DNA of 64,000 nt, taken from the NCBI GenBank assembly GCA_022616055.1, contig JAKEFM010000223.1:1-64000 (forward strand), given 5' to 3'. The DNA is from Planctomycetota bacterium (GTDB taxonomy: Bacteria; Planctomycetota; UBA1135; JAKEFM01). Made by a program: the position numbers and the translations under genes. The notes under the pieces were generated by a model. It had not been told where the DNA came from, made no database searches, and saw only the letters and a program-made list of their open reading frames with translations. Below, in pieces: positions 1 through 30,989 of this stretch (within the stretch, counting starts at the first letter, position 1; the number at the start of each line of letters is the position of its first letter).

Positions 1-294
1 AGGGGGATCCCCGAGGCGCTCGTCGTGCGGCGCCACGCCCTGCGCAACGCCCTCCTCCCGGTCGTCCAGCTCTTCGGCCTGAACCTCCCCCTCCTCTTCG
101 GCGGGTCGGTCCTCGTCGAGTCGGTCTTCGGCTGGCCGGGCGTGGGGCGGGTCCTCGTGGAGGCGGTCCAGCTCCGGGACATCCCCGTCGTCCTCGGGGC
201 GTGCTTCTGGTTGACCCTCCTCGTCGTCGCCGGGAACCTCCTCGCCGACCTGCTCTCGGCGCTCGCGGATCCCCGCGTCCGGAGGGAGGCGTGA
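1..294 (+). CDS. ABC peptide transporter permease, DppB/OppB type (C-terminal part)
   Basis: Only the last 97 codons are inside the window; the reading frame is already open at base 1, so the ORF-track start at 25 is internal. The residues fit the end of a DppB/OppB-type permease: an EAA-like loop segment (HALRNALLPVVQLFGLNL), then membrane segments around LLFGGSVLVESVFGWPG and a last hydrophobic stretch ending in ADPRVR, the typical tail of this family. It forms the inner-membrane channel of a di/oligopeptide (or nickel) importer together with the next permease. The stop overlaps the GTG start of that gene by 4 nt, so the genes are translationally coupled. Substrate cannot be told; the binding protein lies outside the window if present. 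Confidence 0.9.
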   Translation, partial: RGIPEALVVRRHALRNALLPVVQLFGLNLPLLFGGSVLVESVFGWPGVGRVLVEAVQLRDIPVVLGACFWLTLLVVAGNLLADLLSALADPRVRREA

Positions 295-10304: not shown

Positions 10305-10838
10305 TCATCCCCTCTCCACCCCGCCGACGAAGGCGATCTCCTGGAACCCGACCTCCGAGGCGAGGTCGAGGACGCGGACGACCTCCCCGTAGCGCACCCC
10401 CGGGCGCGCGTCGATCGCGCAGGGGCGCGGCCGGCCGTCCTCTCCCGGGGTCACCCTCGCCTGCTCGGCGAGCCAGGAGCGGAGCGTGCCGAGGTCCTCC
10501 GTCGCGCGGGGGCCGAGGGAGTAGCGGAGCACCCGGCCGACGAAGTCGTACGCCCGCCCGTCGCGGGAGGGGTCGTAGGGACGGCCGGGGCTCCCCTCCG
10601 CGACCTTCCTCCCCTCCTCGACGACCTCGATCCGCACCCCGACCTTCTCGAGCGGCCCGGCGGCGACCGCGCCGCTCCCGACGTCGCGCGGGAGGTGGGC
10701 GCTCAGCTTCCCCTCGAGGGTCTGGAAGCGCAGCGTGCAGAGGAAGAAGACGAGGAGCTGGAAGGTGACGTCGATCATCGGCGTCGTCTGGAGGGGGACC
10801 TCGCGCTCGGAGACCTCCCGGTTGATCGCGGCGGTCAC
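10305..10838 (-). CDS. exbD: ExbD/TolR-family biopolymer transport protein (second copy)
   Basis: 177 residues, ATG start three bases after the stop of the first ExbD gene. A short cytoplasmic tail (REVSEREVPLQ) leads into the single membrane helix with the ExbD/TolR signature TTPMIDVTFQLLVFFL, whose Asp is the proton-carrying residue of the motor. The periplasmic domain (about 45-177) ends with the usual ExbD strand-helix pattern (RPGVRYGEVVRVLDLASEVG). It is longer than E. coli ExbD (about 141 residues) owing to an insert around SPGRPYDPSRDGRAYDF. It works with ExbB as the proton-driven stator; two ExbD genes in tandem suggest a hetero-oligomeric plug. Confidence 0.93.
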   Translation of the reverse strand: MTAAINREVSEREVPLQTTPMIDVTFQLLVFFLCTLRFQTLEGKLSAHLPRDVGSGAVAAGPLEKVGVRIEVVEEGRKVAEGSPGRPYDPSRDGRAYDFVGRVLRYSLGPRATEDLGTLRSWLAEQARVTPGEDGRPRPCAIDARPGVRYGEVVRVLDLASEVGFQEIAFVGGVERG

Positions 10839-10841
10839 GGC

Positions 10842-11339
10842 CTAGCGCCCCTCCTCCCTCCCCTCGGCGGCCGCCAGCTCGACCTTCCAGATGCGCACCC
10901 CCTCGCGGGCGCACCACTCGAGGACCCGCTGGACGTGGGCGAAGGGGACGTTGCGGTCCGCCCGTACGAGGAGGGGCTCGTCGGGGATCTCCCGCCGGGC
11001 GACCTCGTCGTACCGGCGCGGCATCGCCCGGGCCCACCGGGCGAGCTGCTCCTGCACCTCCCGGGGGTCGCGCAGCCGCGGGTCCGCGCTCGTCGGGTCG
11101 TAGGTGAGGCGGCGGCGGATGAAGACGCGCCCCTCGTGGTCCACGTTGAGGATGGGGCGCTTCGTCGCCGGCTCGTCCGGCACCGCCGCGCGCGCGGGGG
11201 GGAGCTCGAGGCTCTCGAGCTCCTTCTGCCCCATGTCGATCGTGACGATGAAGAAGATGATCAGCTGGAAGCAGCAGTCGATCATCGGGGTCATGTTGAT
11301 CCCGAGGTCGAGGTCGATCGAGCGGCGGGGGGCGGGCAC
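10842..11339 (-). CDS. exbD: ExbD/TolR-family biopolymer transport protein (first copy)
   Basis: 165 residues. The track ORF runs far upstream, but the GTG at 11339, with GGGAG a few bases before it and 11 bp after the ExbB stop, is the sensible start. The membrane helix carries the signature INMTPMIDCCFQLIIFFIV with the essential Asp; the Cys-Cys after it is unusual but position-tolerant. The periplasmic part contains RRRLTYDPTSADPRLRDP, an insert similar in place to that of the second copy, and ends FAHVQRVLEWCAREGV. Inner-membrane component of the ExbB/ExbD motor. Confidence 0.92.
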   Translation of the reverse strand: MPAPRRSIDLDLGINMTPMIDCCFQLIIFFIVTIDMGQKELESLELPPARAAVPDEPATKRPILNVDHEGRVFIRRRLTYDPTSADPRLRDPREVQEQLARWARAMPRRYDEVARREIPDEPLLVRADRNVPFAHVQRVLEWCAREGVRIWKVELAAAEGREEGR

Positions 11340-11350
11340 CCGGAGGCTCC

Positions 11351-12085
11351 CTACCCCTTCGCGACCCGGAGGCGCTCGAGGAGGTCGACGGCGAGATCCC
11401 CGACCTCGATCGAGAGGCGGGTCACCCGGTTGCGCATCTGGGCGAAGACCGCCGTCACGGGGATCGCGACGAGGAGGCCGAAGAGCGTCGTCAGGAGCGC
11501 GACGGCGATGTCTCCGGCGAAGTCGGCGGGGTTCGCCTGGCCCCGCTTCGCCGCGATCACGTTGAACGCCCCGATCATCCCCTGGACCGTCCCGAGGAGG
11601 CCGAGCATCGGGGCGATGTTCGCGTGCACGGAGAGCCAGCCGACCCGCTGGTGGAGACGGATCGACTCCGCCTCGAGGGCGTCGGCGCTCGCCTTCTCGA
11701 TCGCCTCGTGGGGGTGGCCCGCCTTCGCCAGGCCGGCCGCGACGACGTTCGCGAGGAAGGAGGGGCGGTCCGCGCACAGCTCGAGCGCCTCCCGCACCGC
11801 CTTCTCGTCGAGGAGGGCGTGGAGCTCCTCGAGGAGGTCCGGGGGGGCGAGCTTCTCCCGGCGGATCGTCATCGCCTGCTCGAGGGCGATCGCCCCGACG
11901 AGGACCGACTGGGCGACGATCAGCATCCCGATCACGCCGGAGGCCCGGATCCACCCCCACACCGAGTGGGTCCACGCGAGCGGATCCCTCGCCGCCTCGG
12001 CCTCCTCCTGCGCCAGGGCGCCGCCCGCTGCGAGGGCGAGGAGGAGGGCGGCCGGGAGGAACGGCGAGCGGGCGAGTCGTCTCAT
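11351..12085 (-). CDS. exbB: ExbB/TolQ/MotA-family proton channel protein
   Basis: 244 residues, ATG with AAGGAG upstream. It begins with a cleavable signal-like segment (PFLPAALLLALAAGGALAQ), seen in long ExbB proteins, followed by three membrane helices. The conserved core NIAPMLGLLGTVQGMIGAF and the later helix DIAVALLTTLFGLLVAIPV, with the polar residues lining the channel, are clear. ExbB pentamers with ExbD convert proton flow into movement of a TonB-like partner. Here the only TonB-like anchors nearby are those of the divergent toroid proteins at 16478 and 18251. Confidence 0.94.
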   Translation of the reverse strand: MRRLARSPFLPAALLLALAAGGALAQEEAEAARDPLAWTHSVWGWIRASGVIGMLIVAQSVLVGAIALEQAMTIRREKLAPPDLLEELHALLDEKAVREALELCADRPSFLANVVAAGLAKAGHPHEAIEKASADALEAESIRLHQRVGWLSVHANIAPMLGLLGTVQGMIGAFNVIAAKRGQANPADFAGDIAVALLTTLFGLLVAIPVTAVFAQMRNRVTRLSIEVGDLAVDLLERLRVAKG

Positions 12086-12119: not shown

Positions 12120-13184
12120 TCACTCGCCGAGGGCGCGGCGGGCCTTCCCGGCCCAGGGGGAGGAGGGGTGGCGGTTCGCGACCTCGGCGAGGTAGGCCCG
12201 CGCGAGGCGCTCGGCGTCGGGCTCCTCCCCGGAGAGACGGCGGTGGCACTCGGCGAGGAGGTAGGTCGCGCGCGGGACCGAGGGGAGGCCGGCGGGCCCC
12301 GTCGCCCGGGCCTCGGCGAGGGCGTAGATCGCCTCCCGCACCCTCCCGGCGGCGAGGAGCGCCTCCCCCTCGCCGGCCCGCGCGGTCGCGCGCGGCGCGA
12401 ACGCGCTCCCCGCCTCGGCGAGGAGGCCGCGGAAGTGGGAGAGCGCCTCGGCGGCGCGCCCCTCCGCGAGGAGACAGTCCCCCTGCGCGGCGCGCACGCG
12501 CGCGAGGAGGGGGGAGGGCGCGGGGATGCGCGCCTCGAGCGACCCGAGGGTTCTCCGCGCCTCCCCGGCCCGACCCGCGGCGAGGAGCGTCTGCGCCTTC
12601 TCGAAGTCGGCCTCGAGCTGCGCCTCTTCCCCTAGGAGGGAGACGCCCCCGCCCGCCTCCCCGAGGAGGGCGAGAGCCTCGTCGTGGCGCTGGAGGCTCC
12701 GCAGGCACCGGGACCGGCCGAGGAGGGCCGCCGGGAATCGCCGGCTCGAGGCGTGGGCCTCGGCGAACGCCCGGTAGGCCTCCGCCGCCTCCGCCGTCTT
12801 TCCCTCAACGGTCGCTCCCCACGCCTCGAGGAGCCCGGCGGACTCGAACGCGACCTCCTCCCGCAGCCAGGGACGCACTCCCCTCGCCTCGAGCGCCGCG
12901 GCGAGCGCGCGGGAGGCGGCGGCGAACTCGCCCGCCGCGCGCCTCTCGCGCGCGCGGCGGAGGGCCGGCGGCTCGTCCCGCCACTCGATCCTCAGGACCT
13001 GCGAGGCGGGGAGGACCCGCTCGCTCCCCCCCGCGCGGTAGCGCACCCCCGCGAGGGCGTCGGCGAGGACCTCCTCCACGCCGAGGCGCGAGCCGGTCAC
13101 CGTCACGATCACGTCCCGGCGGCCCCCGGGGCCCGAACCGTCCGGTGAACAGGTCGCGAGGAGGAGAGGGACGAGGGGGATCAT
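12120..13184 (-). CDS. TPR-repeat envelope protein
   Basis: 354 residues. The N-terminus is a short signal (MIPLVPLLLATC) with a lipobox-like LATC, although Thr before Cys is not the standard residue, so lipidation is uncertain. Residues about 25-75 (DVIVTVTGSRLGVEEVL ... LPASQVLRIEW) form a small non-repeat region seen as a beta-type module. The remainder is Ala/Glu/Arg-rich helical repeats of TPR type to the end (RHPSSPWAGKARRALGE). It lies 34 bp upstream of exbB and downstream of the large TPR gene, so it is probably a periplasmic scaffold of the same assembly. No enzymatic motif seen. Confidence 0.75.
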   Translation of the reverse strand: MIPLVPLLLATCSPDGSGPGGRRDVIVTVTGSRLGVEEVLADALAGVRYRAGGSERVLPASQVLRIEWRDEPPALRRARERRAAGEFAAASRALAAALEARGVRPWLREEVAFESAGLLEAWGATVEGKTAEAAEAYRAFAEAHASSRRFPAALLGRSRCLRSLQRHDEALALLGEAGGGVSLLGEEAQLEADFEKAQTLLAAGRAGEARRTLGSLEARIPAPSPLLARVRAAQGDCLLAEGRAAEALSHFRGLLAEAGSAFAPRATARAGEGEALLAAGRVREAIYALAEARATGPAGLPSVPRATYLLAECHRRLSGEEPDAERLARAYLAEVANRHPSSPWAGKARRALGE

Positions 13185-13257: not shown

Positions 13258-16257
13258 TCACCTCGTCCGATCCATCAACCAGCGGAACCGCGCCGCCGCC
13301 TCGGGGCCCGCGATCGACTCGCCGAGGTCGGGGGCCTGGGAGGCGAAGGCCTCCAGGCTCGAGCGGAGCCGGCGCCCCTGCGCGGGGTCGATCCGGCTCC
13401 ACCTGTGGAGCATGTAGAGGTGCCCGAAGAGGAGATCGAAGAACTCGGCGTCCCGCCACGCTTCGCGGTGGGAGGCGAGGAGCTCGAGCCAGAGGCGGTT
13501 GCACTCCTCGAACTTCGGGGCGCTCGGCGGGACGCCCGGAGGACCCGGCTCGCCCTCCTCCTCCGCCGTGCCGGCGACCTCCACGAAGGGGGGGCGCGTC
13601 CCCCGCAGGTGGCCCCCGAGGCAGCGGGCCAGCAGCAGCTGGGTCTCCCTCGTCCGGCGCTCCGCGAGGACCTCCCGAAGCTCCTCCTCCGCCTTCGCGA
13701 GCCTCCCCTGCGCGAAGAGACAGCGCGCGTGCGCCTCTCGCAGCGCGGCGCGGCGGCCCTCCGCCTCCGGGTCGTCGGCGAACGTCCCGAGGATCGCCTC
13801 GTACAGGGCGCGCGGCCGGTCGAAGTCCCCGGCCCCGCGGCTCGCGAGCTCGAACCAGAGGTCCGCCTCCTTGCGCCAGTTGCGGAACGAGGGCTTCGCG
13901 GTCGAGTTGTAGAGGGAGAGGACCTCCGCCGCCTCCCGGAGCGCGGCCGTGAGGGCCTCCTCGGAGGAGCCGGGCGCTCGCTCCGCCTCCCGCGCGACGA
14001 GCACCTTCTCTTCCAGGGCGGAGAAGACCCTCGCCGCGGCGAGCCCCGTGAACCGGTCCTCTGCGAACCGATCCCGCATCGAGGAGAGGACCCCCTTCGC
14101 CGCCTCGAGGTCCCCGGCCCCGACGTGGGCGACGACGAGCCCGTAGTGGATCCGGGGGTGGTACTCGGAGCGCTCGGGGTGGAGCTCGAGGGCGCGCTCG
14201 AGGAGGGGGACCGCCCGCTCGAAGCCCCTCGCCCGCGCCGCCGCATCGCCCTGCGCCTCCGCCTCCCGCAGGGCGAGGGTCGCGGAGAAGAAGTCCGCCT
14301 CCGCCTGCGCCTCCTTCCGCCGGGCGATCGCGGCCGGGTCGGTGCGGGCGTTCCGGGGATCCTCGACCCGTCGCCGGAACTCGTCGAAGTGGCGCCTCGC
14401 GACCGCGAGGTCCGCGCTCCCGCAGGCGATCACCCCCTTGCGGGCGAGGGCGCGCTCGTACCACTCGCTGTCGGGACCGATCCGCTCGAGGCGGGCGAGC
14501 GCCTCCGCCGACTTCGCCCGCGCCCCCTCGGCATTCCCCTCCTCCTGGAGCGCGAGGGCCTCCTCCCGGAGTCGGACCGCCTGCCGCCACAGGAGGGTGT
14601 CGGCGGAGCCGCCGCGAGAGAACTTCGTGACCTCTTGCTCCGCCTCGGCGAGCAGGGCGCGGGGCGCCTCGTCGTTCCTCCCCGGCCCGCCGCGGCGGAT
14701 CGCCAGCATCGCCCGGTGGAAGCCGTCGGCGTTCCGCTCCGCCGTGGAGGGCTCGGCGGCGAAGTCGCGGGCGCCCATGCGGTACGCCATCGCCGCCTCG
14801 TGGGGCTGGCCGAGGGCCTCGAAGGCGCGGCCGAGGAGGAGGCAGGCCCGTCCTCCGTGCGTCGCCCGGTCGGCCTCCCCGCGCATCTCGCCGAGCGCGC
14901 GGCGGAGGAGCGCGAGCGCGTCATCGGGCTTGCGCAGGCGAAGCTCCCCCTCCGCCGCCGCCAGGAGAACCTCCGGATCGAATCCCCCGCCGGACGCAGC
15001 GATCTCGGCGAGGAAGGCCTGCGCCCGCAGCTCGAGGGTCGTCCGGGGGTTCTCGCGAAGCACGCGCAGCGCCAGCCGGAGGGCCTCCGTCGCGTCCCCC
15101 TCCTCGAGGAGGGAGCGCGCCCCCTCGAGGAGGGCGAGGTATCCCTGGACGCTGGGGGAGCGATCGCCCTCCCGCTCCATCCACTCGAGGAGGCGCCGCC
15201 TCCAGCGCCCCGCCCCCTCCGCGTCCCCCTCGCGATTCGAGAGCGCGAGCGCGATCGCGAAGGCCTCCTCCGTCCTCTCCCGGCGGAACCCCTTCCCCTC
15301 TTCCCCCTCCTCGACCGCGACCTCGCGGAGGACCTCGGGATCCTGGGGGAGGGCGTGCTCCATGACCCACTCGCAGAGCGAGAGGGCGGTCTCGAGCCGC
15401 TCCCGGCGCTCCCGCTCCTCCGACTCGCTCCTGGCCGCCTCGCGGGCGAGCTCCCCGTTCGTCCGGGCGAGGAGGAGGCACCCGAGGAGGCCGAACCACG
15501 AGCCCTCGCCCGAGGAGAGGAGGTAGTCGTTCATCACCCCGGCCGCCGTCCGCAGGTCGTCGGCCCGACGAGACGACCCGAGCGGCGCCGCCGCGCCCCG
15601 GTCGTGGTACGCCTTCCCCTTCACGTACCACGCGCGGAAGAAGGCGACGCGCTGCTCCTCCGACCTCTCTCCCTCCGGGACTTCCTCGATCGCCGCGACG
15701 ACGCGGCTCGCCTCCCGCACGGCGATCGCGAAGGAGGCGTCGGCGGCGGCGACGAGCGCCGCGCGCGGGTCCCCTGGCGGCTCTCCACCCGGGTCCTCCC
15801 GGAGGATCTCCGCCACCTCCGCCTCGATCCCGGCCGTGGGGGGATCTCCCTCCTCGGAGCGCTGGACCTCCTCTGCGAGGAACCGGCCGCGGGAGGCGGC
15901 GACCTCGGCGCAGTCGAGGCGCGCCGGGAGAGTCGCGGTCGTGCCGCCGTGGCGGGAGAGGAACGCCTCGAGCTTCCGGACGGCGAGCGACTGGAACTCG
16001 AGGCGACGCCCGCGGTCGAGTTCCCGCTCGGCGGCGAGCTTGAGGATTCCGCACGAGGCGAGGGCGACCCTGCGCTCCTCCTCCGCGGGGAGGCCCTGGC
16101 GGAGGAGCCTCTCGAGCCTCTCCGAGGCGAGGTCGTGGTAGCCGAGCTCCGAGACGAGAGCGCGGGCGAACGCGATCTCGTCCTCGACGGAGGACCCGGG
16201 GAGAGCCGGCGCCTGCCCGCCGGCGGAGAGGAGGAGGAGAAGCGCGAGGAGCGGCAC
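13258..16257 (-). CDS. Large periplasmic TPR-repeat protein
   Basis: About 999 residues if the GTG at 16257 is used; the track ORF extends to 16581 but crosses the divergent promoter region and the start of the toroid gene. The chosen start gives a hydrophobic leader (PLLALLLLLSAGGQAPALP) that resembles a signal peptide, though without a basic n-region, so the start is unsure. The rest is almost entirely helix-turn-helix repeats rich in Ala, Glu, Arg and Leu, consistent with TPR/Sel1-like solenoids (e.g. ACLLLGRAFEALGQPHEAAM). First gene of the operon leading to ExbB, two ExbDs and a secretin, and divergent from the toroid genes. Likely a scaffold; no catalytic motif. Confidence 0.75.
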   Translation of the reverse strand: MPLLALLLLLSAGGQAPALPGSSVEDEIAFARALVSELGYHDLASERLERLLRQGLPAEEERRVALASCGILKLAAERELDRGRRLEFQSLAVRKLEAFLSRHGGTTATLPARLDCAEVAASRGRFLAEEVQRSEEGDPPTAGIEAEVAEILREDPGGEPPGDPRAALVAAADASFAIAVREASRVVAAIEEVPEGERSEEQRVAFFRAWYVKGKAYHDRGAAAPLGSSRRADDLRTAAGVMNDYLLSSGEGSWFGLLGCLLLARTNGELAREAARSESEERERRERLETALSLCEWVMEHALPQDPEVLREVAVEEGEEGKGFRRERTEEAFAIALALSNREGDAEGAGRWRRRLLEWMEREGDRSPSVQGYLALLEGARSLLEEGDATEALRLALRVLRENPRTTLELRAQAFLAEIAASGGGFDPEVLLAAAEGELRLRKPDDALALLRRALGEMRGEADRATHGGRACLLLGRAFEALGQPHEAAMAYRMGARDFAAEPSTAERNADGFHRAMLAIRRGGPGRNDEAPRALLAEAEQEVTKFSRGGSADTLLWRQAVRLREEALALQEEGNAEGARAKSAEALARLERIGPDSEWYERALARKGVIACGSADLAVARRHFDEFRRRVEDPRNARTDPAAIARRKEAQAEADFFSATLALREAEAQGDAAARARGFERAVPLLERALELHPERSEYHPRIHYGLVVAHVGAGDLEAAKGVLSSMRDRFAEDRFTGLAAARVFSALEEKVLVAREAERAPGSSEEALTAALREAAEVLSLYNSTAKPSFRNWRKEADLWFELASRGAGDFDRPRALYEAILGTFADDPEAEGRRAALREAHARCLFAQGRLAKAEEELREVLAERRTRETQLLLARCLGGHLRGTRPPFVEVAGTAEEEGEPGPPGVPPSAPKFEECNRLWLELLASHREAWRDAEFFDLLFGHLYMLHRWSRIDPAQGRRLRSSLEAFASQAPDLGESIAGPEAAARFRWLMDRTR

Positions 16258-16402
16258 GCGAAGGGCGCGGAGGAGTAGCGTCCCTCCTCCGGGCTCGGGG
16301 AGGAGAGCGCCCCCGAGTCTCTCCCTAGTCGCCGAGGCGGGGAAGTTTCGCGTTCCCCCGAACCGTCGGCCTCCCCGCGCCGTTGATCCGCGCCGGCCTC
16401 GA

Positions 16403-16434
16403 GGACCCCGGTCCGAGGGGAAGGTCCCGTGGCC
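16403..16434. repeat. GC palindrome element upstream of toroid gene 1
   Basis: Imperfect inverted repeat GGACCCCGGTCCGAGGGGA followed by AGGTCCCG, 44 nt before the start codon. A closely similar element sits 46 nt before the paralogous gene at 18251, and a third at 23996. It could be an operator or a leader hairpin. Confidence 0.45.
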
Positions 16435-16477
16435 CGCGATCCGCTCCCCTCGGAAGCGCAGCCACCTCCTCGTCCTC

Positions 16478-18115
16478 ATGAACAACTCGAGCGATCGACC
16501 GGAGTCCGTCGCGCCCGGGACCGGAGCGCCCTCTCCGCCGTTCTTCCGGACCCTCGTCCGCAACGCGCCGTGGACCATCATCGCGGGGATGATCCACGTC
16601 GTCCTGATCGCGGTGCTGAGCGTGATCTACGTCGCGCACGTCCGCAGCAGGGAGGAGGCGAGGCCGACCACCGTCGCGATCCGCGAGGTCCGCGACGAGC
16701 CGGTGATCCCCCCCGTCGAGCCCCCCGAGAGCTTCAAGCGCGACGCTCTCCCGAAGCTCGCGGAGAAGAGTCTCGACCCCACCCCGCCCGTCGAGGACCC
16801 CTTCCTCGAGTTGGGGAAGGTGCTCCCCGAGGACCAGGTCTTCGAGGACGCCACGGTGAACGAAATCCGCGGGGACCCGACCGCGCTCGATCTCATTCTC
16901 CCCCCCGGCGACACCACCGGGGGGACGCCGATCGGAGTCGGCCGCATCGGGCGCTACGGGACTGGAATCCCCGACTCGATGGGGATCGGGAAGGTCGGAT
17001 CGCCCTACGGCGACCGCGACGGGGGGCAGCAGAGGGCCCGCAGGACTTGGCGAGGAGTCGAGACCGAGGGGCCGCTCGAGGACGCCCTCGAGTGGCTGAG
17101 GAAGCACCAGGACCCCGGAGGGAGGTGGGACTGCGATGGGTTCTCCAAGCACTGCAGGCAGAACACGTGCGACGGGCCCGGCGAGGGGCTCCACGACATC
17201 GGGGTCACAGGCCTCGCCCTCCTCGCCTTCCTCGGGGACGGCAACACGCTCAACACCGGACGCTACCGCGCCGTCGTCGCGCGGTCGGTCAAGTGGCTGA
17301 TCAACCAGCAGAACCGGGAGAACGGGCTCCTCGGTGATCCGGCCGGTCAGGCCTACCTCTACTCGCACGCGATCGGCACGCTCGCCCTCTGCGAGGCCTA
17401 CCATCTGAGCGGCAGGCCGGCGGCCCTCCGGGAGCCTGCGCAGCGCTCGCTCAACCTGATCCTCGCCTCGCGCAACCCCTACAAGGCCTGGCGCTACAGC
17501 CACCTCCCGAACGGGGACAACGACACCTCGGTGACCGGGTGGATGGTCTTCGCGCTCAAGGCGGGGGAGGAGGCGGGGCTGAACATCGACAAGACCGCCT
17601 ACGACGCGGCGCTCGCCTGGTTCGACGAAATGACCGACATGCAGACGGGCCGGTGCGGCTACCAGCAGAAGGGGGAAGCCTCCTCGAGGCGCACCGGGTC
17701 CGAGAAGCGCTTTCCGCAGGAGAAGACGGAGTCCCTCACGGCCGTGGCGCTGCTGTGCCGCTTCTTCCTCGGCCAGACGCCGGACAGGGTGCCGACGATG
17801 CGGCTGCACGCCGACCGGCTGCGCAAGACCCTCCCGGTCTGGGAGGTGACTCCGGAGCGCTCCCTGGTGGACGAGTACTACTGGTACTACGGCACCTTCG
17901 CGATGTTCCAGATGGGGGGGGAGGACTGGAAGCTCTGGAACGGGGCGATGAAGAAGGCGATCGTCGAGCACCAGCGGCAGGGGGGGGACGAGAACGGGTC
18001 GTGGGACCCCGTCGGCGCGTGGGGGAAGGACGGGGGCCGCGTGTACATGACCGCGATGAGCGCCCTCTGCATGGAGGTCTACTACCGATACGTGAGGGTC
18101 CTCGGGGGGCGGTAG
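16478..18115 (+). CDS. TonB-like anchor fused to terpene-cyclase-like toroid, copy 1
   Basis: 545 residues. A short cytoplasmic tail precedes one membrane helix at about 29-53 (APWTIIAGMIHVVLIAVLSV) that aligns with TonB's anchor, including the intramembrane His in IH. A Pro/Glu-rich periplasmic linker (residues 55-110) and a Gly-rich stretch follow. From about 195 onward an alpha/alpha-toroid of the prenyltransferase/squalene-cyclase type runs to the end, with QW-like motifs (KHQDPGGRW, DENGSWDP). A Cys/His cluster WDCDGFSKHCRQNTC lies at the toroid entry. Cyclase DxDD and prenyltransferase zinc ligands are not evident, so I expect binding rather than terpene chemistry. Likely partner of ExbB/ExbD encoded divergently. 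Confidence 0.8.
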   Translation: MNNSSDRPESVAPGTGAPSPPFFRTLVRNAPWTIIAGMIHVVLIAVLSVIYVAHVRSREEARPTTVAIREVRDEPVIPPVEPPESFKRDALPKLAEKSLDPTPPVEDPFLELGKVLPEDQVFEDATVNEIRGDPTALDLILPPGDTTGGTPIGVGRIGRYGTGIPDSMGIGKVGSPYGDRDGGQQRARRTWRGVETEGPLEDALEWLRKHQDPGGRWDCDGFSKHCRQNTCDGPGEGLHDIGVTGLALLAFLGDGNTLNTGRYRAVVARSVKWLINQQNRENGLLGDPAGQAYLYSHAIGTLALCEAYHLSGRPAALREPAQRSLNLILASRNPYKAWRYSHLPNGDNDTSVTGWMVFALKAGEEAGLNIDKTAYDAALAWFDEMTDMQTGRCGYQQKGEASSRRTGSEKRFPQEKTESLTAVALLCRFFLGQTPDRVPTMRLHADRLRKTLPVWEVTPERSLVDEYYWYYGTFAMFQMGGEDWKLWNGAMKKAIVEHQRQGGDENGSWDPVGAWGKDGGRVYMTAMSALCMEVYYRYVRVLGGR

Positions 18116-18172
18116 TCGACCGGAGGCCCCCCCGAACCCGCGACCCCTCCGCTCCGTTGTTCCGGTCCGCGC

Positions 18173-18205
18173 GGGGACCCCGCCCGAGGGAGGGTCCCGC
18201 GGGCC
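18173..18205. repeat. GC palindrome element upstream of toroid gene 2
   Basis: GGGGACCCCGCCCGAGGGA then GGGTCCCGCGGGCC: the second copy of the element seen at 16403, at almost the same distance (46 nt) from the start codon. The arms GCGGG(G)ACCC and GGGTCCCGC can pair over 9 bp with one bulge. Confidence 0.45.
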
Positions 18206-18250
18206 AACCTTGCCCTCTCCTCGGGCGTCCCGGTACCCTTCCTACCTGCC

Positions 18251-19888
18251 ATGAATGCGCCGAACGAACGACCGGAGTCCGTCGAGCCGGGGACCGAGGC
18301 GCCGTCTCCGCCGTTCCTCCAGACCGTCGTCCGCAACGCGCCGTGGGCCATCATCGCGCTGATGATCCACGTCGTCCTGATCGCGGTGCTGAGCGTGATC
18401 TACGTCGCGCACGCCCGCAAGAAGGAGGAGCTGACGGCGACTTCCGTCGCGATCAGCCAGCCCCGCAACGAGGAGGACCTCGCCCCCGTCGAGCCCCCGC
18501 CGATCATCGAGCGCAACGCGATCCCGAAGCTCGCGGACACGAACCTCGACCCGACGGAGAGCATCAAGGACGTCTTCCTCGAGCCCGGGAAGGTCATCCC
18601 GGAGAACGAGGTCTTCGACGACGCCACGGAGAACGACCTGCGCGGCGATCCCACCGCCCTCGACCTGAACATCCCGCGCGGCGACACGACCGGCGGCACG
18701 GCGGCCGGCGTCGGGACGGTCGGGCACTACGGGACGGGGATCCCCGACACGGTGGGAGGCTCGAAGGTCGGCTCGAGGTACGGCAGCCGGTTCGGGGGGA
18801 AGCAGGGAGCCCGCGGGACCGGCGGGGGATCGGGGACGGAGCAGTCGCTCCGGGACGCCCTCGAGTGGCTGAGGAAGCACCAGGACCCCGACGGGAGATG
18901 GGACTGCGACGAGTTCTCGAAGCACTGCAAGCAGAACACCTGCGACGGGGCCGGGGAGGGGCTCCACGACATCGGGATCACCGGCCTCGCCCTCCTCGCG
19001 TTCCTCGGGGACGGCAACACGCTGCAGGTCGGGCCCTACCGCGCCGTCGTCGCGCGGTCGGTCAAGTGGCTGATCGCCCAGCAGAACCGGGAGAACGGGC
19101 TCCTCGGCGAGCCGGCCGGGACGAGCTACCTCTACTCCCACTCGATCGGGGCGCTGGCGCTGTGCGAGGCCTACAGCCTCAGCAACAAACCGGCGGCCCT
19201 GCGGGAGCCGGCGCAGCGCGCGATCAACCTGATCCTCGCCGCGCGCAACCCCTACAAGGCCTGGCGCTACAACTATCCGCCGAACGGGGACAACGACACC
19301 TCGGTGACGGGGTGGATGGTCTTCGCCCTGAAGGCGGGAGAGGAGGCGGGGCTCAACATCGACAAGACCGCCTACGACGCCTCGCTCGCCTGGTTCGACG
19401 AGATGACCGACCTGCAGACGGGTCGGTGCGGCTACCAGCAGAAGGGGGAGGCCTCCTCCCGGCGCACGGGCTCGGAGAAGCGCTTCCCGCAGGACAAGAC
19501 CGAGTCCCTCACGGCGGTGGCTCTGCTCTGTCGCTTCTTCCTCGGCCAGACGCCGGAGAAGGTGCCGACGATGCGGCTGCACGCCGACCGGCTGCGCAAG
19601 ACCCTCCCGGTGTGGGAGGTGACGCCCGAGACCTCCCTGATCGACGAGTACTACTGGTACTACGGCACCTTCGCGATGTTCCAGATGGGAGGGGAGGACT
19701 GGAAGCTCTGGAACGGGGCGATGAAGAAGGCGATCGTCGAGCACCAGCGGCACGGGGGGGACGAGAACGGGTCGTGGGACCCGATCGGCGCGTGGGGGAA
19801 GGACGGCGGGCGGGTGTACATGACGGCCATCGGCGCCCTCTGCCTGGAGGTCTACTTCCGCTACGCGAAGGTCCTCGGGGCGCGGTAG
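18251..19888 (+). CDS. TonB-like anchor fused to terpene-cyclase-like toroid, copy 2
   Basis: 545 residues, a paralogue of the preceding gene with the same architecture. The membrane anchor (NAPWAIIALMIHVVLIAVLS) again keeps the TonB-like His. The acidic Pro-containing linker is followed by the toroid, whose Cys/His cluster (WDCDEFSKHCKQNTC) and C-terminal half are almost unchanged. The linkers differ most (here EEDLAPVEPPPIIERNAIP), suggesting distinct partners or spans but the same cargo-binding fold. No Shine-Dalgarno sequence is obvious, as for copy 1. A large TPR gene starts 11 bp downstream. Annotation pipelines usually label such proteins prenyltransferase/squalene oxidase repeat proteins; true ligand unknown. 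Confidence 0.8.
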   Translation: MNAPNERPESVEPGTEAPSPPFLQTVVRNAPWAIIALMIHVVLIAVLSVIYVAHARKKEELTATSVAISQPRNEEDLAPVEPPPIIERNAIPKLADTNLDPTESIKDVFLEPGKVIPENEVFDDATENDLRGDPTALDLNIPRGDTTGGTAAGVGTVGHYGTGIPDTVGGSKVGSRYGSRFGGKQGARGTGGGSGTEQSLRDALEWLRKHQDPDGRWDCDEFSKHCKQNTCDGAGEGLHDIGITGLALLAFLGDGNTLQVGPYRAVVARSVKWLIAQQNRENGLLGEPAGTSYLYSHSIGALALCEAYSLSNKPAALREPAQRAINLILAARNPYKAWRYNYPPNGDNDTSVTGWMVFALKAGEEAGLNIDKTAYDASLAWFDEMTDLQTGRCGYQQKGEASSRRTGSEKRFPQDKTESLTAVALLCRFFLGQTPEKVPTMRLHADRLRKTLPVWEVTPETSLIDEYYWYYGTFAMFQMGGEDWKLWNGAMKKAIVEHQRHGGDENGSWDPIGAWGKDGGRVYMTAIGALCLEVYFRYAKVLGAR

Positions 19889-19899: not shown

Positions 19900-22791
19900 A
19901 TGGCGACCCTCCGCGCGCCCGACCGGCGCCGAGCCCTGCTGTGTCGCGGGACCGCCCTCTTCGCCGCGTGGGTCGCGTCCGGCGCCCCCGCGCTCGGGCA
20001 GAGCGCCCGGATCCTCGGCCGCGACGACGCGGAGTTCGCCCGCCTCCTCCTCGAGGCGAACTATCCCGACCTGGCGCAGGGGCTCCTCGCCCTCCTCGAG
20101 AAATCGGCCAAGCCCGGCGCGACCGGGACGGCCGGGGCGGAGGCGGCCAAGCTCGACCTGCGCCTCGAGCTCGCCCGCCAGGAGCCCGACCTCGCGAAGC
20201 GCTCGGACCTGATCGGGAGGGTCCTCGAGGACCGGCAGGTTTTCCTGCGCCAGCACGCCGGCACCCCCGAGGCGGAGGCGGTCTGGATCGGGCTCCCCGA
20301 GGTCTTCGGGCGGCTCGCCGAGGTCCTCGCCGCGCTCCTCGAGAAGGAGAGCGACCCGGTCGCGCTCGAGCGGATCCGGGGCCGCTTCGGGAATTCCTTC
20401 GTCGACTACGAGGCCGAGCTGCGGGACAGGATCGCCGCCCTCGAGATCGACCGGGCGGCGGACCCGGAGGGGGAGGCCGAGCGGCAGTACATGATCGCCT
20501 CCTTCAACCTCGGGCGGATCTACTTCCATCACGCGCGCCTCTACCCCCCGGAGAACCCCCTCCACCTCGACCTCCTCCGGCGGACGATCGACGCCTACCA
20601 GCAGTTCAGCATCGAGTACAGCGACCGGCTCCTCGCCTTCGAGGGGTTCCTCTACCAGGGGCTCGCGCTGAAGGAGCTCGGGCGGCTCGACGAGGCGCGC
20701 AAGTGCCTCGACGACGCGATCGGGCTGCGGGAGACCTACGAGCGGGACGTGAAGGGGGTCTACCTCCTCCCCCCCGAGGCGGCCGACATCGTCGTCGCCG
20801 CCTTCCTCCAGAAGGTCCTCCTCCTCTCGGAGAACAAGGACTACGCGGCGGTGTCGCTCGTGGCGAAGGAGTTCCTGAGGTGCGTGCCCCGCCCCCTCTC
20901 CACGCCGACGGGGCTCGCCGTCCTCGGCGCCCAGGCGAGGGCGCAGGTCGACGCGGGGGACACGGCGGGTGCGACGGAGACGGCGCGGGCGCTCCTCGCC
21001 GCCGATCCGAGGGGCCCCTGGGGGGCGCTCGGCCGCGACATCCTGGGGGGGAACGTCATGACCCCGGGGCCGGGGAAGGGGCTGCGCCTCGAGGAGACGC
21101 TCGAGATCGCGAAGTCCCTCGCGAGCCAGGGGGAGTACGACAAGGCGATCGCCGTCTGCCACCAGCTCCTCGCGAGCGCGCGCGGCGCCGAGAAGGAGGC
21201 CGACTTCGGGGCCGAGGCGTTCCACCTCGTGGGGATGATCTACGCCACCCGCAACCTCCTCGCCGAGGCCTCCGTCGCCTTCGACGCGGCCGTCCAGCGC
21301 TATCCCAAGGGGGAGAAGGCCTCCGACGCGCTGTACGGGGGGATCCGCTGCTACCAGAGGCTCAACGCCCAGGAGAAGCGCCCCTTCTACAAGCGCCGGA
21401 TGGAGGAGCGGATGCGCGAGCTCGCGACGAAGTACCCCGAGAGCCCCTTCGCCGCCTCGGTCCAGCTCGTCGAGGCGCAGGACCTCGAGGACGCGGAGGA
21501 CTTCGCCGGGGCCGTGGCGCTCTACGAGAAGATCCGGCCGGGCTCCGCCGCCTACGAGGAGGCGCAGTACCGGGCCGGGAGCGGCTACGCCAAGATCGGC
21601 CGCCGCGCCTTCGCCGAGGGGAAGAAGGAGGAGGCGCGCGCCCAGTTCGCGAAGGGGGAGGCGCTCCTCAAGAAGGCGATCGCCGAGCTCGACTCCGCGC
21701 GCACGAGGACCGTCGACTCGCGGCGCCTCGCCCTCCTCGGGGAGATCGCCTTCGCCGCGCGCCTCTCCCTCGCGGGGCTCCTCCTCCACGAGGGGGTCGC
21801 GCGCGGGTCCGACGCGATGCCGGTCCTCGACGCGGCCGAGGAGCGCGCGGGGACCGACGCGGAGAAGCTCGCCTCGGTCTGGGGGATGCGGATCAAGGCG
21901 TTCGAGGCGCAGGGGAAGCTCGACGACGCCGCGAAGCTCCTCGACGGGCTCCTCCAGAAGAACCCGGACACCCGGGGCCTCGGGGCCGCCGCGAGCGCGA
22001 TCGGGAGGGCCTTCGACGTCCGCTCGGCGGAGGAGAGGGCGAAGGACCCCAACTCCCCCGTCGCGCAGGACCTTCTTCGGAAGGCGGCGCGCTACTACGG
22101 CCTCGGCGCGAAGTCCCTCGCCCGGGGCGAGGAGGTCGTCCGGACGGAGGACCTCGAGGAGATCGCGAAGCGCCTCTTCGCGATCGCCCTCCAGTTCAAC
22201 GAGGTCCCGGACAGCGCCGGGGGGACCTTCGTCAACTGGCAGGCGACGGGCCGCAAGGCGCCCGAGCCCTGGGAGCAGGCGGCCCTCCTCTTCGAGGCGG
22301 CGGTGAGCCGAAGCCCCTCCCACCGTCCCCGGCTGAACCTCGGGCGGTGCTACGGGTTCCTCGGCCGGTGGAGGGAGGCCGCGCGCGTCTACGCGGAGCT
22401 GTTCGAGCACGAGCCGCTCGTCGACCGGGAGGCCCGGCGGCTCGATGCGGGGGTCCTCCGCGCGAAGCCGGAGCTCCTCCCGGCCTACCTCGAGTGGGGG
22501 GTCGCGGAGCACCGCTCCGGCGTCTCGGACGGGGACGCCGACGGCTTCCGGCGCGCCTCCGAGATCTACACGCTCCTGTGCTCGAATCTCCCGGAGGGGC
22601 ACCCGATGTGGTGGGAGGCGAAGTACCTCCAGATCCGCGTCCTCGTCGACCAGGGGGACTACGCGCAGGCCGAGTTCCTCCTGCGGGACCTCAAGCGCAG
22701 CACCGGGGAGTTCCCCCCGGGGTGGAAGGAACGCTTCCGGGCCGTCGAGGAGGAGCTCTCGGGGAAGGTCTTCCGCCAGAACCCGAAGTAG
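19900..22791 (+). CDS. Large secreted TPR-repeat protein
   Basis: 963 residues starting at ATG 19900, 11 bp after toroid 2; the 1750-aa track ORF starting at 17539 runs through the toroid gene in a wrong frame. A twin-Arg-like basic stretch (APDRRRALLCRGTALFAAWV) and an ALGQ site suggest a signal peptide. Repeats typical of TPR are visible throughout, e.g. FEGFLYQGLALKELGRLDEARKCL and AQYRAGSGYAKIGRRAFAEG. It resembles in design the 999-residue TPR protein at the head of the divergent operon. Probably a periplasmic scaffold working with the toroid proteins; no catalytic motif was found. Confidence 0.8.
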   Translation: MATLRAPDRRRALLCRGTALFAAWVASGAPALGQSARILGRDDAEFARLLLEANYPDLAQGLLALLEKSAKPGATGTAGAEAAKLDLRLELARQEPDLAKRSDLIGRVLEDRQVFLRQHAGTPEAEAVWIGLPEVFGRLAEVLAALLEKESDPVALERIRGRFGNSFVDYEAELRDRIAALEIDRAADPEGEAERQYMIASFNLGRIYFHHARLYPPENPLHLDLLRRTIDAYQQFSIEYSDRLLAFEGFLYQGLALKELGRLDEARKCLDDAIGLRETYERDVKGVYLLPPEAADIVVAAFLQKVLLLSENKDYAAVSLVAKEFLRCVPRPLSTPTGLAVLGAQARAQVDAGDTAGATETARALLAADPRGPWGALGRDILGGNVMTPGPGKGLRLEETLEIAKSLASQGEYDKAIAVCHQLLASARGAEKEADFGAEAFHLVGMIYATRNLLAEASVAFDAAVQRYPKGEKASDALYGGIRCYQRLNAQEKRPFYKRRMEERMRELATKYPESPFAASVQLVEAQDLEDAEDFAGAVALYEKIRPGSAAYEEAQYRAGSGYAKIGRRAFAEGKKEEARAQFAKGEALLKKAIAELDSARTRTVDSRRLALLGEIAFAARLSLAGLLLHEGVARGSDAMPVLDAAEERAGTDAEKLASVWGMRIKAFEAQGKLDDAAKLLDGLLQKNPDTRGLGAAASAIGRAFDVRSAEERAKDPNSPVAQDLLRKAARYYGLGAKSLARGEEVVRTEDLEEIAKRLFAIALQFNEVPDSAGGTFVNWQATGRKAPEPWEQAALLFEAAVSRSPSHRPRLNLGRCYGFLGRWREAARVYAELFEHEPLVDREARRLDAGVLRAKPELLPAYLEWGVAEHRSGVSDGDADGFRRASEIYTLLCSNLPEGHPMWWEAKYLQIRVLVDQGDYAQAEFLLRDLKRSTGEFPPGWKERFRAVEEELSGKVFRQNPK

Positions 22792-24038: not shown

Positions 24039-26651
24039 CTACCGGTTCGAGCCGCCCGCGAGGAGAGGCTCGTGCTCGACCGGGATGACGACCTTAGCCC
24101 GCAGGAGGATCAGGAGCTTGCGGTTGCTCACGAAGGTCCCCTTCCGCGAGAAGAAGGAGGAGACGAGAGGGATCTTGTTGAGGAGCGGGACGCCCGACTG
24201 GAAGTCCTGCTGCTCGCTGATCTTCAGGCCCCCGAGCACGATCGTGGAGCCGTCCGGCATCGAGACGGTCGTCCGCGCGCGCTGGATCTCGAGCTCGGGG
24301 AGCTGGATCGTGACCGGGGACCCGACGCCGAGGCTGGTCGAGGTCTGCTGGATCGGCCGGCGGAGCACCGCGACCGTCGGGCGCAGCTCCATCGTGATGA
24401 ACTTGCGGTCGGCGGAGACGACCGGCTTCACGTCGAGGAAGATCCCGTCGTTGACGACGTCGATGATCGGGTCGGCGACCGCGGCCGCCTGGGCGATCTC
24501 GACGTCGAAGTCCTTCACGTAGGTGACCTGGTTCAGGACCTTCAGGCTCGCCCGCTCCGTGTTGAAGACGAGGAGGTGGGGGGCCGTGACCTCCTCGACC
24601 CTCTCCGACTTCGTGACGGCGCGGAGGATGAGCTCGAGCTGGGTGTCGTCGAGGAGGGTGTACTGGACGGAGAGCCCCCCCGATCCCTGCAGGATGTTCG
24701 CGTTCCCGAGGCCGAGGTCGAAGAGGTGCTCCGCGCGGCCGCGCAGGTCCGCGTCGTTCCCCTCCTGGAAGAAGCCTCCGACGTCGGGCCCGGTCCCGAT
24801 CTCCCCCGGGTCCGAGGGGGAGCCGGGGGTGTTCCCGAAGTCGTCGAGGATGGCCCCCGACCCGACCCCGGGCACCCCGAGCCCGCCGGAGTCGTCGCCG
24901 AGCCCGCGCCAGTCGACGCCGATGTCCTCGAGGAAGGAGTCCTGGACCTTCAGGAAGCGGGCCTGGATGTCCACCATGATCCCGGTCGCCTCGCGCAGGT
25001 CGTCGAGGAGGCTCGAGATCTTCTCCTGGACCTCCGGGGTCTGGCGGACGACGAGGGTCCCGTTCTGGACGTTGATCGTGTTCCGCTCGTCGGCCGTCCA
25101 GGACTCGGCGGCGATGTTCGCCTTGATCAGCTCGACCAGCTTGTCCGCGTTGATGACGAGGAACTCCCGCTGCTCCCCCGCCTCCGGCTCCGGGCGCTGG
25201 TCCGTGCTCCCGAAGAGGTTGATCTCCGGCGCCGGGAAGTCGCGGACGGGGTGGACGATGTCCCGCACCTCGTACTGGGCGAGGACCTGGCCCCCCTTCA
25301 GCTCCTCCTTGTGGACGATCTGGACGACGCCGTTGCGGATCCGCCAGCCGAGGGGGAGGAGCTCGCTCATCAGGTCGAGGACCTTCGCGACGGAGGTCGA
25401 CTTGAGGTCGATCCCGCGCAGCGTCTTCTCCTCCGCGCTCACCTCCTCGCGCACGCGCCGGGAGACGAGGAAGTTCACCCCCGTCAGGTTCTGGAAGAAG
25501 GAGGCCGCCTCCTCGATCGAGGCCTCGTCGAACTTCGCGGGGAAGACGGTCTCGGCGAGGCGCCGCCGGATCGCCTCCTCCTCGGCCCCCTCGGGCGCGG
25601 CGACGGGGCGGATCTGGCGGGGCTCGCGGGCGGCGACCTCGCGCCACCGGTCGAGGTCGAAGCGGAAGGTCTCCGTCTGCGGCACGTCCATCGCGTCGAG
25701 CTCGGCGAAGGTCCGCTGCCACTCCTCCGCCAGCCGCTTGCGCAGGTCGCGGTCCGTCGACTCGTGGCGGGCGGCGACGACGATCTGGAGCAGGTCCTGC
25801 GCCTGGGCGTTCTCCGGCTCCATCGCCAGGATCTGGCCGAGGAGCGCCTCGGCCTCGGCGAAGCGCCCGGCGGAGAAGGCCCCGTCCGCCTCGCGGTAGA
25901 GCGCGCGGACGCGGGTCTGGCGCGACTCCCGGTCCTCCCGCTCGCGGCGCTCCTGCTCCGCACGCGCGCGCGCCTCCGTCTGCTCCGCCATCTCCCGCTC
26001 GGCGGTCTCGGCGGTCGCGGACGCCTCGTCCATCTTCTGGCGGATGACCGCCTCGGAGAGCTCGGGGGTCTGGAGGAGGGGGTTGTAGCGGAGGATGAGG
26101 AGCGCCTCCCGGTACTTGTCGATCGCCTCCTGGTAGCGGCCGGCGCGGGCGGCGTTGTCCGCGTCGAGGACCGCCTGCTCGGCGGCGATCCTCGCCTGGG
26201 CGCGGCGCACGCTGCTCAACTGGGCGGCGTCCTCGACGAACTCGGCGGCGGAGGCTCCCCGCTCCCCGAGGATCGCCTCCGTCCGGCGCAGCCCCTCGCG
26301 GGCCGCCTGGGAGGTCGGGTCGACGTCGAGCGCCTGGGCGTACTGGACGAGCGCCTCCTGGAAGTCCGCCCGGTCGAAGGCCTCCTTCGCCCGCTCGACG
26401 TACTGGTTCGCGAGAACGGCTGCCCGCTCCTGCCGCAGGCGCAGGCCCTCCGCCTCCTGCCGGAGGAAGCGCCCCGGATCCTCCTGGGCCGCGGGCTCCC
26501 CCTGCCGGGGAGGCGTCCGCTCCGCGCCCGGGCCGGCCGCCGCCGTCTCCCCGGGAGGGGGCTCGAACTCGGGCGGGGGGGCCGTCCCCCTGCAGCCGAT
26601 CGCGAGGACCGCCAGCGGAGCGGAGAGGAACAGACAGGTGAACCTGCTCAT
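24039..26651 (-). CDS. TPR-containing secretin lipoprotein, PilQ position, copy 2
   Basis: 870 residues from the ATG at 26651; the track start at 26765 lacks a signal, whereas this one begins SRFTCLFLSAPLAVLAIGC with Cys20 as lipidation site. Architecture mirrors copy 1: Pro-rich spacer, TPR-like repeats (about 55-320), an STN/N0-like domain (about 370-455, FDEASIEEAASFFQNLTG), an N1-like domain, and a secretin core ending MPDGSTIVLGGLK. The core carries a Gly/Asp-rich insert (DDSGGLGVPGVGSG), a place where copy 1 has a similar insert. Last gene of a series in pilM-N-O-P-Q order, so it is the likely outer-membrane pore of a type IV pilus-like or related system. Confidence 0.9.
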   Translation of the reverse strand: MSRFTCLFLSAPLAVLAIGCRGTAPPPEFEPPPGETAAAGPGAERTPPRQGEPAAQEDPGRFLRQEAEGLRLRQERAAVLANQYVERAKEAFDRADFQEALVQYAQALDVDPTSQAAREGLRRTEAILGERGASAAEFVEDAAQLSSVRRAQARIAAEQAVLDADNAARAGRYQEAIDKYREALLILRYNPLLQTPELSEAVIRQKMDEASATAETAEREMAEQTEARARAEQERREREDRESRQTRVRALYREADGAFSAGRFAEAEALLGQILAMEPENAQAQDLLQIVVAARHESTDRDLRKRLAEEWQRTFAELDAMDVPQTETFRFDLDRWREVAAREPRQIRPVAAPEGAEEEAIRRRLAETVFPAKFDEASIEEAASFFQNLTGVNFLVSRRVREEVSAEEKTLRGIDLKSTSVAKVLDLMSELLPLGWRIRNGVVQIVHKEELKGGQVLAQYEVRDIVHPVRDFPAPEINLFGSTDQRPEPEAGEQREFLVINADKLVELIKANIAAESWTADERNTINVQNGTLVVRQTPEVQEKISSLLDDLREATGIMVDIQARFLKVQDSFLEDIGVDWRGLGDDSGGLGVPGVGSGAILDDFGNTPGSPSDPGEIGTGPDVGGFFQEGNDADLRGRAEHLFDLGLGNANILQGSGGLSVQYTLLDDTQLELILRAVTKSERVEEVTAPHLLVFNTERASLKVLNQVTYVKDFDVEIAQAAAVADPIIDVVNDGIFLDVKPVVSADRKFITMELRPTVAVLRRPIQQTSTSLGVGSPVTIQLPELEIQRARTTVSMPDGSTIVLGGLKISEQQDFQSGVPLLNKIPLVSSFFSRKGTFVSNRKLLILLRAKVVIPVEHEPLLAGGSNR

Positions 26652-26715
26652 CGGGCCTATCCTCGGTTCGATCTCGATCGGAGGAGCGATTCCCCGTGCC
26701 GGTCCGCCGGGTGGC

Positions 26716-27684
26716 TCACCTCGGGGCGGCGGGCGAGCCGGCGGTCGCGGTCCGGACGACTCCACAGGCGTCCCGGAACCGCACGGAGGGGTAGGAAACG
26801 GACCGGACGACCGTCCGCGTGCGGAAGACGGGGCGTCCGTCCTCCACCTCGCGGGAGCCGTCGGGGCGAAACACGGGGAACCGGAGTTCGACGTCCTCCT
26901 CGCGCGGGGTCGAGCCGACCTCCTCGAGGACGAAGCCCGTCGGCGCTCCGGCGTCGGTGCGGATGGTATCCCCGGAGGAGGCGGAAGTTTCGAAGGTCCG
27001 CCCGCCGAGGGCGGTGGCCCGGAGGCGGGCCCTCCCCTCCTCGACTCCCAGGAGTTCGAGCCGGTACCGGTCCCCGACGGCCACCACGACCGGTTCGCTC
27101 CGGCGGCTGCGGCGGACCTCCACCCCCTCGACCTGACTGCGCAGGACGGTCACGACGCAGTAGAAGTACCGAATCGAAGGGCAGACATCGGGGTCGAGAC
27201 GCTCGAGCCCCGCCGTCTCCCCCTCCAGGCTCCGCACGCCCTCGTTGTCCCTCCACCGGTAGACTTCGTAGGTCACTCCCTCGCGCGGATTGCGGTCGTC
27301 GTGGAGCCACCGGAGGGTGACGCCGTGTTCGTCGACTTCTCCGCGCAACCCGGGAGGAGGGAACACGTCGGCCGCGCCGGCGGGTTCCGCGGGGGCCTTC
27401 GCCCCGAGCGCCACCCAACGCACCGGGGGGTCCGGAGAGGAGGGCGCGGGCGCGGACCACCGCTCGGCGAAGGTCACGGGCGGCCGGGCTCCGTTGGCGC
27501 GCCCGCTCGGTTCGACGAATCGCGCCGCGGCGCCCGTCACGACGGATTGCGCTCGAACCTCGCTCCTCGCGATCCCGCCGTGCAGGCGCACGTGGAAGGC
27601 GAAGACCATACCGGCGAAGGCCGCGAGGGTCAACAAGGAGAGCCGCGCCGCCTCCCCTCGGGGGATGCCGGGGGAGCCGCTCAC
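26716..27684 (-). CDS. Membrane-anchored fibronectin-III-like protein in PilP position
   Basis: 322 residues. The GTG at 27684 overlaps the upstream stop (GTGA). One N-terminal membrane helix (about 11-30, LSLLTLAAFAGMVFAFHV) is followed by a linker, then a fibronectin type III-like module at about 105-185 (VDEHGVTLRWLHDDRN ... FYCVVTVLRSQ). A beta-rich C-terminal region (from about 190, YRLELLGVEEGRARLRATA) ends near residue 320. It is not recognisable as PilP by sequence, but its place between the PilO-position gene and the secretin, its topology and its beta-rich tail make it a functional PilP counterpart candidate (inference). Confidence 0.65.
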   Translation of the reverse strand: MSGSPGIPRGEAARLSLLTLAAFAGMVFAFHVRLHGGIARSEVRAQSVVTGAAARFVEPSGRANGARPPVTFAERWSAPAPSSPDPPVRWVALGAKAPAEPAGAADVFPPPGLRGEVDEHGVTLRWLHDDRNPREGVTYEVYRWRDNEGVRSLEGETAGLERLDPDVCPSIRYFYCVVTVLRSQVEGVEVRRSRRSEPVVVAVGDRYRLELLGVEEGRARLRATALGGRTFETSASSGDTIRTDAGAPTGFVLEEVGSTPREEDVELRFPVFRPDGSREVEDGRPVFRTRTVVRSVSYPSVRFRDACGVVRTATAGSPAAPR

Positions 27685-30022: not shown

Positions 30023-30081
30023 GGAGGGAGGGGGGAGGCCGCGGGAAGCGGCGGATGCTAGCGATCCCGTGGGGGGCGCCG

Positions 30082-30897: not shown

Positions 30898-30904
30898 GGG
30901 CCGA

Positions 30905-30910
30905 ATTCTA
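30905..30910 (-). promoter_or_regulatory. TAGAAT -10 box for the uracil-DNA glycosylase
   Basis: TAGAAT (5 of 6 to the -10 consensus) ends 7 nt before the GTG start, which would place the transcript start at or next to the start codon. No clear -35 is present. The same TAGAAT-N6-GTG layout occurs at 51454. Confidence 0.4.
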
Positions 30911-30959
30911 CGGCCGCCGGTTCCGCGCTCCTGGCCGGAGCCGGCTCCTCCGGCCGCAC

Positions 30960-30987
30960 TTGACGGTAGGGGGGAACTCGCTAGATT
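30960..30987 (+). promoter_or_regulatory. Candidate promoter for the glycan cluster
   Basis: TTGACG, 16-nt spacer, TAGATT on the plus strand. Both boxes are good matches in a region otherwise lacking AT-rich words. It would give a leader of roughly 480 nt before the chosen start at 31476. Confidence 0.45.
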
Positions 30988-30989
30988 CC

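Follow-up and report, generated by a model that had tools for sequence, protein, structure and literature searches.

In a stretch of 64,000 nucleotides from a Planctomycetota bacterium (contig JAKEFM010000223.1 of assembly GCA_022616055.1; the whole stretch is called here the window), two tandem genes, P0001 and P0002, encode what are likely to be force transducers of the inner membrane, akin to TonB and TolA and dependent on the proton motive force, in which an alpha/alpha toroid replaces the TonB C-terminal domain. An initial annotation, made from the sequence alone, had described both as TonB-like anchors carrying a toroid of the terpene-cyclase type, and had proposed an ExbBD-driven system in which the toroid works in the periplasm. 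The coordinates of the features discussed are collected in Table 1.

The two genes are real open reading frames (ORFs), whose 545-residue products are 79% identical to each other. An AlphaFold2 model of P0002, obtained by using an alignment of 56 family sequences as input, agrees with the annotated N-terminal membrane helix, which is single (residues 31-60). It is followed by about 125 disordered residues (62-186), Pro/Glu-rich as described for the linker of TonB and consistent with the flexible, periplasm-spanning segment of TonB/TolA-type transducers, and by a confidently predicted toroid (residues 190-541, pLDDT above 90 for most of the domain). The single N-terminal transmembrane (TM) segment, the basic residues that precede it in the family at positions -12 and -11, and the length of the disordered region indicate that the toroid is able to reach the periplasm. 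No match to the TonB_C domain (PF03544) was found in P0001 or P0002, and no Pfam match to the vWA domain in these or in the family members scanned, the C-terminal domain being the toroid. The single sequence of P0001 matched nothing in the PDB, and a viral structure library gave no match at <=0.001.

The anchors of 102 N-anchored relatives follow the consensus PWxxxSxxxH, in which the His is conserved in 100 sequences, the Ser and the Pro in 92 each. The family thus has a Ser-x3-His unit within a single N-terminal membrane helix, like TonB (S16/H20) and TolA (S18/H22), where this unit contacts ExbB or TolQ (PMC12215075). The anchor had been aligned by eye with TonB around PW and the intramembrane His. 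The alignment stands for the His, which is nearly invariant, but not for the motif Ser of the window pair, where Ala is found, nor for a literal match of PW, which was rejected: the spacing to the His is one residue off (PWxxxSxxxH in the family, PWxxxxSxxxH in E. coli TonB), so that PW stays outside the strict alignment and the Ser-x3-His unit is the homologous signal. The pattern [SA]xxxH was found in 96 of 115 toroid ORFs taken from loci outside the set used to define the motif; ORFs without it were mostly copies with a signal peptide, or fragments.

The specificity of the anchor was evaluated by a hidden Markov model (HMM) built on 86 non-redundant toroid anchors, window excluded, and scored on 30 TonB/TolA anchors and 1495 decoy membrane segments, the latter including unannotated ORFs. 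TonB/TolA sequences made up 9 of the ten best-scoring hits and 15 of the best 20, with an area under the curve (AUC) of 0.915. Profiles with shuffled columns reached a mean AUC of 0.61 (maximum 0.80), and placed on average 0.9 positives among the top 20 (maximum 6). The SxxxH motif itself is present in 81 of 86 toroid anchors and in 25 of 30 TonB/TolA anchors, as against 13 of 1495 decoy helices. A chance TM segment carrying a His was ruled out by the decoy and column-shuffle tests. When an anchor profile, which included both window anchors, was compared with 177,635 PDB sequences, only three matches were obtained at E<=10, all of them TolA (E 0.75, 0.79 and 7.3); the full-family profile also retrieves the TonB of the Ton complex (E 0.65). 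The TonB-like anchor is therefore detectable in profile searches, while the anchor by itself gave nothing significant in Pfam and NCBIfam, these curated libraries being blind to it.

Just beyond the membrane, TonB has a D-box, a strand that binds ExbD (PMC10907165). Toroid proteins show a hydrophobic, strand-like patch 22 to 26 residues after the His (H+22..26), with a mean hydropathy of +0.75 versus -1.01 for the remaining linker (n=84), and the local TonB set shows the same kind of peak at H+24..34. By its predicted position and hydropathy, the patch is a putative D-box or motor-box strand. Such a strand also follows the helix in many of the large ExbD-linked toroid proteins (e.g. RYRVTMA, SFTVQLS and TYRVRIL, with ISVTMVT as the TonB counterpart).

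The assignment of the C-terminal domain to the terpene-cyclase type of toroid was confirmed by several methods. Pfam SQHop_cyclase_C matched 52 of the 56 family members, and the family profile retrieved squalene-hopene cyclase from the PDB (1gsz, E 3e-14). Foldseek, run with the P0002 model, returned alpha/alpha toroids (TM-score 0.68 to 8paj), its neighbours being single-domain enzymes resembling squalene-hopene cyclase, AprG, GH76 mannanases and sugar epimerases. With squalene-hopene cyclase and the single-domain class II terpene cyclases the family shares the fold and the QW-type repeats; unlike them, it is tethered to a TonB-like helix and has no conserved DxDD acid motif, DxDD occurring in only 15 of the 56 alignment rows, at scattered positions. 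An intact terpene cyclase was ruled out on this basis. The toroid is under strong selection, as 32 positions are invariant in the alignment, often occupied by Trp, Tyr, Asp or Arg; His and Glu residues are near-invariant. In some paralogues an ordinary or lipoprotein-like signal peptide replaces the TonB-like anchor (L195:2998-4320, L205:10650-11744 and L058:7658-9112, as locus and positions); such a copy often takes the second place in a gene pair.

Toroid relatives were found in 220 of 246 Planctomycetota genomes, which suggests that the toroid-ended, TonB-like family is a widespread envelope machine of this phylum. A MotA/ExbB match is present in 239 of the 246, so that co-occurrence of ExbB and toroid within a genome proves nothing. 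By a hand tally, in which MotA is included in the family, 63 sampled genomes have toroid relatives and a MotA/ExbB-family gene in the absence of a TonB_C match. Two genomes, G013 and G042, have a single detected MotA/ExbB-family gene, located in a secretin-flanked cluster, yet encode several toroids besides a TonB, so that a single motor would have to serve several arms.

Toroid genes are found in three contexts, whose frequencies are not population estimates, as the loci were picked by similarity to P0002. The largest, class 1, comprises about 100 of the 217 toroid ORFs and lies downstream of rnc and mfd, with a gene for a SurA-like chaperone directly upstream of the toroid in some loci. The typical neighbourhood (L118, L117, L126, L108 and about 100 other ORFs) reads RNase III, Mfd, in some cases a SurA/PPIC-type chaperone, toroid, toroid, and then peptide deformylase or RibF. 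In class 2, represented by about ten loci (L067, L070, L089, L098, L101, L113, L129, L168, L173, probably also L203 and, in a divergent arrangement, the window), the order is toroid-TPR3-TPR400-ExbB-ExbD-ExbD, with some variation, and every locus encodes a TPR3 homologue together with the toroid. In class 3, ExbB and ExbD are followed by a large protein with an SxxxH helix of its own, a long Pro/Ser-rich linker and a C-terminal toroid, preceded in several cases by a PD40 propeller; examples of the class are L114:6451-10419, L269:10596-14156, L278:4955-8602 and L306-L312. The own TM helix of such ExbD-linked proteins carries SxxxH in 13 of 14, and AxxxH in the remaining one.

Linkage to exbBD in relatives is thus conserved in two of the three classes, in numerous families of this phylum, but not in the mfd-linked class. 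Among the 38 ExbD loci of ten near-complete genomes, 8, from 7 of these genomes, have a toroid gene no farther than 6 kb away, versus 0.54 expected (P 1e-7), and in the window's own genome (5.78 Mb in 394 contigs) 3 of 4 ExbB genes lie within about 5 kb of one (P about 2e-5); both P values assume uniform gene placement, and relatedness among genomes inflates the counts. The fourth ExbB gene adjoins TonB, and genuine TonBs are encoded at other sites of this genome. In a FastTree tree of the toroids, ExbB-linked sequences do not form one clade; deep branches carry no support test, and no evolutionary history is drawn from them.

The D-box-like strand, the TPR partners and the ExbB-ExbD-toroid operons support the proposed ExbBD-driven system, and the following mode of action can be envisaged. 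The intramembrane His, accompanied by Ala instead of the usual Ser, would let the N-terminal helix dock laterally onto an ExbB5-ExbD2 motor, and the strand just outside the membrane would pair with the periplasmic domains of ExbD, as the TonB D-box does. The linker would span the periplasm, and the toroid, by its conserved aromatic and charged residues, could grip a partner in the periplasm or outer membrane, the likeliest candidate being a co-encoded TPR protein or a ligand presented by TPR proteins. Proton flow through the motor would then pull or remodel the gripped partner. A more tentative extension is that paralogues are specialised (a housekeeping pair linked to mfd and SurA, a TPR-partnered ExbBDD system, and an ExbB-ExbD-propeller-toroid system), one type of motor perhaps driving several envelope machines.

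Several observations weigh against a motor-driven transducer. Both window proteins keep the His, but their motif Ser is replaced by Ala, a substitution found also in most of the remaining ExbB-linked class 2 copies (L067, L070, L113, L129 and L173); in mfd-linked copies the Ser is almost always retained. E-values of single anchor matches are weak (0.0002 to 0.8) and none is decisive, so that the strength of the evidence lies in the specificity of the matches. Four toroid-bearing genomes, all of them incomplete assemblies, have no detected ExbB. None of about 100 mfd-linked loci has exbBD within 8 kb, and motor use would there be in trans. The toroid can also act without the motor, as the paralogues with a signal peptide or lipoprotein signal indicate. 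Finally, secretin-flanked motor clusters of the order secretin-ExbD-ExbD-ExbB-TPR-secretin occur elsewhere with no toroid gene within about 10 kb (L262, L293, L304, and in part L271), and the window ExbB is closer to the ExbBs of these clusters than to those of class 2. Since the window motor is of a type that can be toroid-free in other genomes, the divergent toroid pair need not use it.

These data bear on three other explanations. According to the first, the toroid works in the periplasm as an enzyme, or as a protein that binds a ligand, of terpene-cyclase or glycosidase fold; the helix only tethers it to the membrane as a plain anchor, and the motor is uninvolved. The extreme, active-site-like conservation of the toroid, the enzymatic nature of its nearest folds, the versions with other export signals and the mfd-linked class all fit this explanation. 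A plain anchor, however, would keep neither the Pro, Ser and His of PWxxxSxxxH at over 90%, nor a D-box-like strand, and it would not account for the ExbB-ExbD-toroid operons; moreover, the repeat that bears the DxDD acid of squalene-hopene cyclase precedes the part aligned with the toroid family and falls outside the alignment. We regard this explanation as unlikely. Somewhat less probable still is a protein both motor-coupled and catalytic, in which the motor would power the reach or the opening of a toroid acting as enzyme or as carrier of a substrate: it would unite the anchor, the strand and the motor linkage with the conserved, pocket-like residues, but no catalytic motif was recognised, and it is without precedent among the TonB/TolA transducers in the literature compared. 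That the motor-secretin operon lies by chance next to the toroid pair and its TPR3 gene, the two being functionally unrelated, would agree with the toroid-free clusters and with the affinities of the window ExbB, but is very improbable, as elsewhere the toroid-TPR3 pair accompanies ExbB-ExbD-ExbD in essentially all loci seen, and it would affect only the choice of motor by the window pair, not its identification as transducers.

The operon opposite the transducer genes is present as annotated, but is longer: on the minus strand, two TPR genes precede ExbB, the order being TPR1107, TPR354, ExbB, ExbD, ExbD and TPR-secretin. Since secretin-flanked motor clusters also exist without toroids, the window may join two modules. 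The Ser that contacts TonB His20 is kept in the ExbBs of class 2, class 3 and the secretin-flanked clusters (9/9, 7/7 and 5/5), and so are both pore threonines. In class 2 ExbBs (L067, L070, L089, L098, L101, L113, L129, L168 and L173), W38 of E. coli ExbB is changed to Thr or Val, and P190 to Val or Ile; together with the Ala of many partner toroids, these changes are a possible case of co-adaptation.

Among known systems, the E. coli ExbB-ExbD-TonB complex offers the same succession of Ser-x3-His helix (Ala-x3-His in the window pair), strand past the membrane and disordered Pro/Glu-rich linker, and motor genes are near the toroid genes in two classes. The toroid family differs in the one-residue shift of PW and in its C-terminus, a 350-residue alpha/alpha toroid instead of a TonB_C fold, and no TonB-box receptor is linked to its genes. 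TolA of the Tol-Pal system, the sole PDB match of the anchor profile, has a very close TM sequence (ISAVLHVILF); the toroid proteins lack its domains II and III, and TolB-Pal genes were not seen beside the window toroid genes. The vWA force transducers, proposed in 2025 (Williams-Jones et al., PMC12204202), share an SHLS-type helix, a proline-rich or disordered linker and a C-terminal domain other than that of TonB. The working end is vWA there and a toroid here, and class 2 loci are laid out similarly, with the toroid in the place of vWA. Toroids, squalene cyclases and secretins are not mentioned in that paper. Transducers of this general kind are thus known (TonB, TolA, vWA); we could not find a toroid-ended version in the open literature, subscription journals and preprints being outside the search. 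Both TonB and TolA are known to be powered by the ExbBD/TolQR motor. Another large family of transducers, unlike them in its working end, would make this motor a general power take-off, and would offer a testable handle on how the periplasm is energised in these bacteria, whose envelope is unusual. The proposal hinges on a single residue (His40) and a single contact (anchor-ExbB), both easy to test.

Table 1. Position of the toroid genes, of their functional elements and of neighbouring genes within the window.
Feature	Position	Strand	Remarks
P0001, toroid transducer 1	16478..18115	+	545 residues: TM anchor PWTIIAGMIH, disordered linker, C-terminal alpha/alpha toroid
P0001, intramembrane His40	16595..16597	+	Equivalent of TonB His20/TolA His22 (anchor alignment, profile tests, PMC12215075)
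P0001, D-box-like strand TTVAIREV	16667..16690	+	Residues 64-71, H+24 to H+31; position matches family peak and TonB
P0002, toroid transducer 2	18251..19888	+	545 residues: anchor PWAIIALMIH, linker 62-186, toroid 190-541
P0002, intramembrane His40	18368..18370	+	Invariant in the 56-sequence alignment
P0002, D-box-like strand LTATSVAI	18431..18454	+	Residues 61-68
P0002, alpha/alpha toroid	18818..19873	+	Residues 190-541 (AlphaFold model, Foldseek, profile search)
TPR3	19900..22791	+	Predicted secreted TPR protein, about 960 residues, 11 bases after P0002
TPR1107	13258..16581	-	Second TPR3-family member; start uncertain, ATG at 16581 overlaps P0001
TPR354	12120..13184	-	TPR-400 family, which precedes ExbB in class 2 and class 3 loci
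ExbB/TolQ-type motor subunit	11351..12085	-	Ser (E. coli S34, contacts TonB His20) and pore Thr residues kept
ExbD 1	10842..11330	-	Start approximate, ORF open to 11975
ExbD 2	10305..10838	-	
TPR-secretin	7515..10163	-	Downstream of the motor genes
Second TPR-secretin	24039..26765	-	Not clearly in the transducer system; similar ExbB-ExbD-ExbD clusters elsewhere are secretin-flanked

Farther along the minus strand are found a zinc-ribbon/TM protein, the second secretin and a PilM-like protein (28415-30610). The association of the last two (24039-30610) suggests a platform of the type IV pilus or type II secretion kind. A gene of the uracil-DNA glycosylase superfamily lies at 30082-31116, on the same strand.

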